This document shows, piece after piece, positions 18,126 through 52,174 of a stretch of DNA of 64,000 bases. The first letter of the stretch is position 1, and each line of letters opens with the position of its first letter. The position numbers were made by a program, and so were the translations under genes. The DNA is from Bacillus sp. FJAT-18017. GTDB lineage: Bacteria; Bacillota; Bacilli; Bacillales; Cytobacillaceae. Under the pieces are notes generated by a model. The model was not told where the DNA came from and ran no database searches. It was given only the letters and a program-made list of their open reading frames with translations. The DNA lies in the NCBI RefSeq assembly GCF_001278805.1, contig NZ_CP012602.1, positions 2,138,001 through 2,202,000 of the forward strand. The letters are read 5' to 3'.

Positions 18126-18207
18126 CAAATATCCGTATTGCTCTTCATTCGAGATGGTGTTATGGATAAATTTTTTATAATAGTGTAAAATGATGGACAT
18201 TGGTATT

Positions 18208-18335
18208 TACCTCACCTTAAGGGCCGGCAAGCCTCCTCCTGAGGCTGCTGACCCGAAAGGTCCGATTGGTGAAATAATACTTTTCTAGGGGCCTTAGAAA
18301 ATCAATCGGACTGTGCGCAACAAATAAACATTGGA
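18208..18335 (+). ncRNA. Candidate structured RNA, family D, diverged copy
   Basis: CTTAAGGGC opens an imperfect helix (GGGCCGGCA with TGCTGACCC) capped by AGCCTC-CTCCT-GAGGCT. Next comes AAAGGTCCGATTGGTGAA, identical in the 36.0 kb copy, and a second arm whose inner stem is TTTTCTA/TAGAAAA and whose outer stem is TCCGATTG/CAATCGGA. The stems differ in sequence from those of the other copies but sit in the same order. It lies between lysA and a small membrane peptide gene. The class is not identified. Confidence 0.55.
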
Positions 18336-33835: not shown

Positions 33836-33898
33836 TTGTGTTTAAGGAAATTATAATTTTCGCGACTGTGGATAACTTTTTTTACTGAGCGTATCTAC

Positions 33899-34046
33899 GT
33901 CTAGCTCCAGCGCCTATCGCCTAGCAAACTTCAGGCCTCCTCCCTACGATAAGTCATCATCGAATCACTTTCGCTCTTCGTGATTCCTTTATCTCAGTCG
34001 AAGTCCCTCCATTTTGTACGGCGATGGCCAAGGCGCTTGCGCTTTT
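33899..34046. repeat. Dispersed repeat family A, copy 2
   Basis: GTCTAGCTCCAGCGCCTA, CTACGATAAGTCATCATCGA, CCTTTATCTC and GGCCAAGGCGCTTGCGC match copy 1 at 4.7 kb in the same order and orientation. This copy lacks the 60-bp internal block of copy 1. No coding frame. Confidence 0.7.
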
Positions 34047-34179
34047 GTTGTGGGAATTTTCTTTTTTATGAATAACTATAGCGAAGACTCCAAATTATAA
34101 CAAATGTGCCATTTGCCGTTCTGAAACCAGTGGGAACTGCATATGGTGGATAGTGCGTGTAACAAGGAGGAGGATTTTC

Positions 34180-35032: not shown

Positions 35033-35054
35033 AAAGTGGTAATTAAATATTGTC

Positions 35055-35186
35055 TATCTTCGGGGCTGGGTGTAATTCCCGACCGGCGGTGATGAGTTAA
35101 TGTTAACTTTAAGTCCGCGAGCCGCAAGGCAGGATTTGGTGCGATTCCAAAACCGACAGTAAAGTCTGGATGGGAGAAGATGGAGG
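35055..35186 (+). promoter_or_regulatory. FMN riboswitch (RFN element)
   Basis: All conserved words are present in order: CTTCGGGGCTGGGTG, AATTCCCGACCGGCGGT, AGTCCGCGAGCC, GCAGGATTTGGTGCGATTC, CGACAGTAAAGTC and GGATGGGAGAAGATGGAG. It controls ribU by FMN-dependent termination at the hairpin near 35.25 kb. Confidence 0.96.
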
Positions 35187-35343: not shown

Positions 35344-35919
35344 ATGAAGAAACTTAATGTAAAAACTATGGTCATGATCGGTATGCTAAGCAGCATATCC
35401 TATGTACTTATGCTGCTGAATTTCCCGCTGCCGGTTTTTCCGAGCTACCTAATGATTGATTTCAGTGACATCCCCGCTCTTTTAGCGGCACTTGCTTTTG
35501 GCCCGTTGGCCGGAGTGCTGGTGGAATTAATTAAGAATGTACTGGACTGGTTTATGACAGGCAGCCAGACAGGAGTGCCTGTAGGCCATATCGCAAATTT
35601 TGCCGCGGGAATTCTGTTCATTTTACCAACCTACTATGTTTATGACAGAATTAAAACAAAAAAAGGCTTGTCTCTGGCGCTGATTTCAGGAACCGTCACT
35701 ATGGCGGTATTGATGAGCATATTGAATTACTTTTTATTCCTGCCAGCTTATACATGGTTTTTGAATGCCCCTGCAATGGCGGATTCAGTAGCTTTAAAGA
35801 GTGTTGTCCTGTTCATATTGCCATTTAATATATTAAAAGGGCTTATTGTTTCCCTATTGTTCCTGCCGCTTTACCTAAGAATGAGTTTTTGGATTGAGAG
35901 GCAGCGGGTACTTGCTTAA
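35344..35919 (+). CDS. ribU: Riboflavin ECF transporter S component RibU
   Basis: 191 residues, five to six membrane helices, with the family pattern PLPVFPSYLMIDFSDIPALL and FGPLAGVLVELIKNVLDWF. It binds riboflavin and works with the shared EcfAA'T energising module, which is not in this window. GGAGAGAGGAAGAA precedes the ATG. The FMN riboswitch upstream confirms the substrate class. Confidence 0.95.
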   Translation: MKKLNVKTMVMIGMLSSISYVLMLLNFPLPVFPSYLMIDFSDIPALLAALAFGPLAGVLVELIKNVLDWFMTGSQTGVPVGHIANFAAGILFILPTYYVYDRIKTKKGLSLALISGTVTMAVLMSILNYFLFLPAYTWFLNAPAMADSVALKSVVLFILPFNILKGLIVSLLFLPLYLRMSFWIERQRVLA

Positions 35920-35971
35920 TTAAGATAAATCATGCAGACAGCCCCAATGCTTGAGCTGAAAAATATAAAAG

Positions 35972-36017
35972 AGGCTGTCCCAAAAGGTCGTTGAACGATG
36001 ACTTTTTGGGACAGCCT
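35972..36017 (+). repeat. Hairpin repeat family F, type i, copy 1
   Basis: AGGCTGTCCCAAAAG and CTTTTTGGGACAGCCT form a long near-perfect stem with an inner GTCGTT/AACGATGAC part. It lies 50 bp after ribU and may end its transcript. A degenerate inverted copy is at 41.94 kb. Confidence 0.65.
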
Positions 36018-36024
36018 TTACTGT

Positions 36025-36216
36025 TTTATCCCACTCTTAACGGGCAGTAAGACCCCCACCCCAAGATTCGCGAAGAAGATAGGTGGGGGATCAACTGCCC
36101 GTAAAGGTCCGATTGGTGAATTAAAGTGAAACTTGCCGCTGTGCCCTTCAGCGGCTTAGTTGAACCAATTGGGCTCCGCGCGGCTATCCATCAGTGTGGG
36201 ATGAGGAAAACCCTCA
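36025..36216 (+). ncRNA. Candidate structured RNA, family D, copy 1
   Basis: CGGGCAGT pairs with ACTGCCCG and encloses GACCCCCACC/AGGTGGGGGATC, giving one long arm. Next comes AAAGGTCCGATTGGTGAA, whose CCGATTGGT pairs with ACCAATTGG; inside it AACTTGCCGCTG faces CAGCGGCTTAGTT. The closing part is CGCGCGGCTATCCATCAGTG. The 51.96 kb copy is nearly identical. No transposase is adjacent. The class is not identified. Confidence 0.6.
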
Positions 36217-36488
36217 CTGTTGGAAGATTCACTTTATGGCTATTGGTTGATATTTAATAAAACTCCACAATTTTTCGTTCGTGTTGGGTTTCCCTCTGTT
36301 CTTAACCTAATTACTTGTTTTTTTTCAATGTTAGCGGCTTTTTTAAAAATTGTGGGATGAGAAAAACAGAGCCAGGTCCACACTGTTTTTGGACAGGCCT
36401 CTTAAGGAAAGGCGATTAAAACAGTCATTCCATTTGATTTGACAAAGTACCTTCAGCGGAAATGAAATTGTACTATTTACCTAACAAA

Positions 36489-36526
36489 AAAAGGCGCCCA
36501 AAAGTGTTCTTTTGGGACAGCCTCTT
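36489..36526 (-). terminator. fer terminator, family F type ii hairpin
   Basis: On the minus strand AGGCTGTCCCAAAAG and CTTTTGGGCGCCT pair around AACA and are followed by TTTTTTTG. It starts about 25 bases beyond the fer stop. The same hairpin, inverted, is at 41.67 kb. Confidence 0.7.
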
Positions 36527-51956: not shown

Positions 51957-52155
51957 TTTTATCCCACTCTTAACCGGCAGTAAGACCCCCACCTTAAGAT
52001 TCAAAGGAAGCGAAGAAGATAGGTGGGGGATCAACTGCCCGTAAAAGTCCGATTGGTGAATTAAAGTGAAACTTGCCGCAGTGCCCTTCAGCGGCTTAGT
52101 TGAACCAATCGGGCTCCGCGCGGCTATCCATCAGTGTGGGATGAGGAAAACCCTT
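51957..52155 (+). ncRNA. Candidate structured RNA, family D, copy 2
   Basis: Nearly identical to the 36.0 kb copy from TTTTATCCCACTC to GGGATGAGGAAAACCC. The first loop (CAAAGGAAGCGAAGAAG) is longer by a few bases; other differences fall mainly at CCGGCAG for CGGGCAG, GCAGTG for GCTGTG and CCAATCGG for CCAATTGG. The last turns a G-U pair with CCGATTGG into G-C. It lies between ypeB and ypfB, same strand. Confidence 0.6.
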
Positions 52156-52174
52156 TATTGAAAAGAGAGGTGCC

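Follow-up and report, generated by a model that had tools for sequence, protein, structure and literature searches.

The three look-alike sequences in the window (the whole 64-kb stretch of Bacillus sp. FJAT-18017 DNA that was analyzed) are probably copies of a small protein-less mobile element rather than a small RNA. They belong to a dispersed repeat that is likely a non-autonomous, MITE-like transposable element without terminal inverted repeats, inserting precisely at TTTAT and carrying TTTAT again on its 3′ side. The best reading that we can offer is a bcr1-/PATE-like non-autonomous transposon using TTTAT, for which single-stranded DNA (ssDNA) hairpins would be the substrate, and the conserved folds look more like transposition DNA hairpins than regulatory or guide RNA. 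We file the family under a known kind, the TTTAT-bounded, transposase-less repeats, and stop short of assigning it to bcr1, with which it was compared by description only.

The complete unit has the order TTTAT/CCCACTCTTAA–left hairpin–TAAAGGTCCGATTGG–(optional module)–CTAA–right hairpin–GGAAGnTTCAC/TTTAT, with the central segment between the two hairpins reading CCGATTGG…CTAA, and inspection of the consensus termini revealed no terminal inverted repeats. The consensus of the family is 152 nt, and the 21 module-less copies aligned from the Bacillus sp. FJAT-18017 genome (G000) are 102 to 156 bp long. TTTAT stands at the start of 152 and at the end of 171 of the 195 distinct full module-less cores; these cores, a set that excludes module-bearing and truncated copies, were reduced to 127 representatives for the analysis of covariation. 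No coding capacity was found in the copies examined, and 20 of the 22 module-less G000 copies are intergenic according to an open reading frame (ORF) heuristic applied to that set.

The copy under study is a complete element with one module on the + strand (36025–36237 of the window), bounded by TTTAT at 36025–36029 and 36233–36237; an earlier interpretation made from the letters alone (the sequence-only reading) had placed its end at 36216. Its left-end hairpin (ACGGGCAGT ... ACTGCCCGT; 36040–36102, + strand) folds both as RNA and as ssDNA and has a covarying stem. The inserted module (36120–36175) lies on the − strand and matches the right-end consensus in inverted form with another palindrome (GCCGCTG/CAGCGGC). 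The right-end hairpin (36188–36223, + strand) was delimited by sequence and covariation, and the right terminus (36224–36237, + strand) consists of AAGATTCAC plus the TTTAT that is right-terminal in the 171 cores counted above. BLAST and sequence comparison delimited the other two copies: the second, at 52.0 kb (51958–52158, + strand), is 93% identical to the 36.0-kb copy across query bases 1–190 and has lost its right hairpin by deletion up to a TTTAT, and the third, diverged copy, at 18.2 kb (about 18206–18318, + strand), has the left hairpin and a module, with the right end missing. The motif GTCCGATTGGTGAA occurs exactly at 18260, 36107, and 52047, always on the + strand; with up to two mismatches allowed, three matches were reached in 2 of 100 shuffles. 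This common motif and the 93% identity bear out the sequence-only reading in its grouping of two near-identical copies with a relative at 18.2 kb. As RNA, the 36.0-kb copy folds better than 200 of 200 shuffles (z −5.99), and its fold as ssDNA is equally good (better than 200 of 200, z −6.04); the 18.2-kb copy folds as RNA with a z of −4.05. The 36.0-kb element has on each side a hairpin that belongs to a different palindromic repeat (GGCTGTCCCAAAAG / CTTTTTGGGACAGCC type; 35970–36019 and about 36488–36525), and an FMN riboswitch at 35052–35185 is found upstream of an ECF transporter S component gene (35344–35919) that is of the riboflavin type by a weaker match.

Three copies had been noticed at first, but the genome holds dozens. 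BLAST of G000 with two of the window copies returned 30 and 25 places, partly overlapping, and a covariance model built from the 21 module-less copies returned 48 matches under strict filters. Applied with the same filters to kin genomes, a search that had been proposed along with the initial interpretation, the model found the family in 21 of 41, its own genome included. In a class-wide sample the element was present in 39 of 398 genomes and 21 of 143 genera, again including its own; the class scan scored nine candidates per genome, so that per-genome counts are floors, and the sample probably contains no B. cereus-group genome because a 16S marker matched 0 of the 398. An exact 25-base scan of named genomes detected at least 120 stretches, with carriers in more than ten other genera among the 80 of 120 matches listed: Peribacillus, Cytobacillus, Neobacillus, Caldibacillus, Lysinibacillus, Rummeliibacillus, Ureibacillus, Gottfriedia, Psychrobacillus, Anoxybacillus, Evansella, and Mesobacillus, together with a strain named Paenibacillus sp. 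FJAT-29882. No B. cereus-group record was among the matches of the plasmid and phage scans. Part of the Bacilli element is present in a plasmid record labelled Klebsiella grimontii pNY3A (CP079755.1, 221561–221652). One relative genome (G014) contains a group of short, low-scoring model matches of ~91 bp with near-constant length and score (e.g., G014:C366:16353–16443), which are perhaps a related short subfamily. Tiny remnants of ~55–60 bp at loci L022, L023, and L402 join half of the left hairpin to half of the right hairpin, consistent with deletions between similar CCCCCAC arms.

Insertion at TTTAT can be followed in a second dispersed repeat of the genus (window positions 33850–34050; CTAGCTCCAGCGCC ... 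GCGCTTGCGCTTTTGT), which serves as a host repeat for the element. The window itself contains an unoccupied target site in this repeat (33972–34003, + strand, TTTAT at 33988–33992), detected by a match to the empty-site pattern (G000:C1:2171972–2172003). Allowing up to three mismatches, 31 empty TTTAT sites were found in G000, 43 in G007, 21 in G005, and 16 in G004, against none in any of these four genomes with the reversed pattern. Among loci L001–L055 of G000, 14 host-repeat sites are filled, 11 of them with the subtype of the empty-site pattern and 3 with a sister subtype; their left boundaries comprise 10 TTTAT and 4 TTTAC, and their right boundaries 12 TTTAT, 1 CTTAT, and 1 TATAT. Filled minus empty site equals the element plus one TTTAT, a product that is the same for a 5-bp target duplication and for an element ending in TTTAT, the two being indistinguishable from empty and filled sites. 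A small number of insertions, later copied along with the host repeat, may account for the filled sites. Since the element inserts at TTTAT and has TTTAT 3′ of itself, the end of an existing copy is open to a further insertion. In the relative genome G006, seven copies, six of them full and one 5′-truncated, form an array with a single TTTAT at every junction, and at an orthologous site (flanks 96% and 91% identical) where G000 has one remnant, G007 has two full copies and a remnant, with one TTTAT per junction. Copies in G014 are up to 100% identical within unrelated flanks, and such copies show recent movement.

Stable predicted RNA folds and strong covariation are also what would be expected of a functional RNA dispersed in modular form, whether an sRNA, a cis element, or an omega-RNA-like scaffold, an explanation that we consider very improbable. 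Pairing was counted for 26 pairs that we named across the 127 representatives, giving 2996 Watson-Crick, 59 G·U, 87 A·C, and 133 other cells. The paired fraction of 93.3% compares with 25.8–41.1% when partners were slid by one to three columns, and compensatory cells number 249 versus 46.8 ± 5.5 (maximum 66) in 300 shuffles, which ignore relatedness. Covariation of the left and right hairpins upholds the initial proposal that pairing is kept by compensating changes, although the stem contrast cited for it does not. RNA-level, + strand selection would favor G·U over A·C among changes, and the absence of this preference argues against selection on RNA. In an FMN riboswitch control (31 sequences, from relatives and the window), G·U reached 81 and A·C 8, or 24 and 8 when only departures from the commonest pair were counted. 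Under the 19-pair structure that RNAalifold itself proposed for the repeat, total G·U does exceed A·C (133 to 47), which would favor functional RNA, but this total is high because some pair has G·U as its commonest form, and among departures the counts are 30 G·U and 47 A·C. A·C at about the level of G·U is also expected from neutral decay of dead copies; the comparison counts against RNA selection more than it proves recognition of single-stranded DNA.

Transcription is a further point in favor of a functional RNA, in that passages of PMC3446304 place bcr repeats inside transcripts (84 of 165 and 62 of 155 copies in two B. cereus strains). Against it stands the mixed orientation to genes: for the 22 module-less G000 copies, the upstream gene has the same orientation as the element in 9 and the opposite in 9, and the downstream gene the same in 6 and the opposite in 12, the remainder having no gene in reach. 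HEARO is a family present in Rfam, and a match to it in particular had been suggested as a check. No match to the element was obtained at the gathering threshold, nor at E ≤ 1 for six loci including the 36.0- and 52.0-kb copies, nor at E ≤ 5 around the 18.2-kb copy. A second suggested check, of tnpB neighbors, was divided: one of six G000 TnpB loci (L066) does have an element, which starts about 518 bp after the tnpB-like stop and within a host repeat, and the other five have no exact match to the end motifs. HEARO and omega-RNAs resemble the element in being structured and near transposon-type ends; the element differs in having no Rfam match, no nuclease gene seen at its ends, and no clear RNA wobble signature. 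With TTTAT at both ends, moreover, a TTTAT-TAM nuclease directed by the right flank would cleave filled and empty sites alike. An omega-RNA/HEARO identity was rejected on the lack of an Rfam match and of shared ends at the six G000 TnpB loci. The proposal of a small RNA or orphan guide RNA made in the sequence-only reading is not supported, in view of the Rfam result, the failure to see these ends with a tnpB at the six G000 loci, the lack of a G·U excess in the named structure, and the mixed orientation. Its companion proposal, an IS200/IS605-like element without its gene, finds support in the subterminal hairpins, the fixed target, and the termini lacking inverted repeats.

The segment between the two ends is missing from many copies, and some of these optional modules appear by sequence to be extra, inverted right ends. 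The reverse complement of 36118–36175 scored 55.5 against the right-end consensus, compared with 15.5 for the forward strand and 32.5 for the best of 500 shuffles; the reverse complement of the 52.0-kb module scored 63.5 and, like that at 36.0 kb, has a foreign palindrome. The 18.2-kb module did not rise above chance as an inverted right end (18.0 against a shuffle maximum of 30.0), and type-2 modules gave weaker scores of 35.5 and, for a G014 unit, 31.5 (shuffle maxima 26.5 and 26.0). A left end, an inverted right end, and a right end occur together at 10 of the loci examined by pattern scan, 8 of them outside the own genome, including loci of Bacillus sp. FJAT-27225 and Peribacillus huizhouensis. 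In Marseille-Q3522, three to five type-2 units of ~54 nt stand in tandem within single elements. GCCGCTG/CAGCGGC and TTTTCTA/TAGAAAA, at first interpreted as one compensated stem, are rather two kinds of optional module; the stem looked diverged because a different, interchangeable module occupies the position. In some copies (loci L168, L172, L218, L224, and L212) the right-hairpin loop carries CGTC-rich palindromic units (GTCGGCACTAG ... ACGTC), another nested repeat.

Among known systems, bcr1 is said to have been described by Okstad in 2004 with TTTAT at each end. According to passages of PMC6542083, PMC2267715, and PMC3446304, bcr1 (bcr group A, bcr1–bcr3) is like the element in its length of ~150 bp, its tens of mostly chromosomal copies per genome, its stem-loops, its MITE-like nature, and a TTTAT motif tied to mobility. 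Bcr repeats are stated to be absent outside the B. cereus group, and their mobility at TTTAT is left unexplained, in passages of PMC6542083; the element described here differs in being carried by Peribacillus, Cytobacillus, Caldibacillus, Lysinibacillus, Ureibacillus, and others and is not confined to that group. Among the papers listed in our literature searches we recognized no TTTAT repeat outside the B. cereus group, and we do not claim absence from print. PATEs are similar in lacking terminal inverted repeats, in having subterminal hairpins, the target at the left, and a possible guide at the hairpin foot, and, from the empty and filled sites, in insertion 3′ of a fixed tetra- or pentanucleotide, here TTTAT, with no other change. 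Unlike a PATE, the element ends in the target on its right side also, it has no autonomous partner among the sequences searched, and its copies are far more numerous than the single PATE-like sequence described in passages of PMC7290912. REP/BIME sequences with their RAYTs are likewise short, palindromic, and of high copy number, and two Y1 proteins of G000 come near REP_Tyr_transpos (77.2 and 61.3 bits, under the curated cut-off of 80); no element was seen beside the RAYT-like genes of G000. REPs, as passages of PMC8266576 describe them, consist of one GTAG-tagged palindrome, with cleavage at CT or CA, whereas the element is two-ended and TTTAT-bounded, with TAA at the foot of the right hairpin in 121 of 127 representatives.

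IS200/IS605 transposases bind ssDNA hairpins and pick cleavage sites via tetranucleotide guides 5′ of the hairpins, according to parts of PMC7290912 and PMC8266576. By analogy, a transposase supplied in trans would recognize both hairpins of the element on single-stranded DNA, with about even chances that it is an HUH enzyme. Of the 127 representatives, 115 have TAA at the 5′ foot of the left stem and 121 have it at that of the right stem, and this foot TAA might pair with the TTA of the TTTAT cleavage sites in the manner of the IS200/IS605 guide tetranucleotides. A pair of covarying subterminal hairpins, each preceded by TAA, suits HUH recognition better than it suits a tyrosine or serine recombinase that acts site-specifically at TTTAT, a mobilizer that we regard as unlikely and none of which is linked to the element. 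What favors a recombinase is that the relative genome G024 has no Y1_Tnp match, yet carries copies up to 98.7% identical (15 compared). G020 likewise lacks a Y1_Tnp match; among the 6 of its copies that were sampled, one of them wrongly oriented in the comparison, identity does not exceed 85.9%. Across the kin genomes, co-occurrence is weak: a Y1 transposase match is present in 19 of the 21 genomes with the element and in 13 of the 20 without it.

A cognate transposase was sought at Y1 loci and between distant ends, and none was tied to the element. None of the five Y1 matches of G000 was seen with the element's ends, nor did any of the 14 Y1 stretches of G014 appear to share them. In other relatives, a scan of 29 Y1 loci looked for direct repeats and for an 8-base motif of the element's ends, which occurred in some; the flanks of 6 of 14 relatives' Y1 loci were inspected, and the other 8 had no end motif by scan. 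No gene-bearing autonomous copy emerged from the named stretches or from an end-pair scan of the loci examined. The 120 named stretches gave 125 pattern matches, 105 of them full short elements and 20 odd or cut. The end-pair scan, in which overlapping loci count twice, matched 278 left and 319 right ends and gave four long pairs; tandem hairpin modules account for the extra length in three of these and unrelated sequence in the fourth, and no transposase was recognized in them. No partner lay within 330 bp of 35 left and 61 right ends, and these are not all explained. At locus L057 (1900–2620), at least four tandem units of ~130 bp, several with TTTAT, immediately precede a Y1 gene of RAYT-like type (77.2 bits to NF047646, slightly short of the cut-off), and these are possibly a repeat family of their own. 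A link between this repeat and the element was considered and dropped, the other inspected RAYT locus with tandem repeats (L160) having a different kind.

A narrower explanation, which overlaps with the one we prefer, is that the repeats are the decayed or trimmed ends of one particular IS200/IS605 element with tnpA. The fixed pentanucleotide at the left, the hairpins near both ends, and the want of terminal inverted repeats agree with it, as does the description of PATEs, in passages of PMC7290912, as palindrome ends often moved in trans. In G014, moreover, four of the 14 Y1 stretches (L402, L407, L410, and L412) have the element or an end fragment of it close to Y1 remnants, and in L410 (about 1195–1350, G014:C360) a left-end fragment directly abuts a Y1 transposase gene fragment. 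Where IS ends can be made out in these stretches (L402, L407, and L412), however, they are unlike those of the element, no Y1 locus of G000 was seen with common ends, and the right flank repeats the target, and we regard the explanation as unlikely. The proximity in the four stretches was taken as coincidence without a statistical test, and it remains a lead.

The preferred reading, a non-autonomous transposon bounded by TTTAT, can be extended, tentatively and with less than even confidence, to a Bacilli-wide transposase-less family in which an ssDNA transposase or recombinase uses TTTAT as target and as both boundaries, so that copies chain head to tail, and in which elements become multi-ended mobile cassettes by gaining either tandem hairpin modules or extra right ends, inverted and with palindromes unrelated to their own; this family may be the class-wide stock of B. 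cereus bcr1. The comparison of G·U with A·C in covarying stems may aid in separating DNA from RNA hairpins in repeat families. With a TTTAT-bounded family present in many other Bacilli, where exact empty sites and recent movement are seen, the question of the mobilizing enzyme becomes testable in other hosts.
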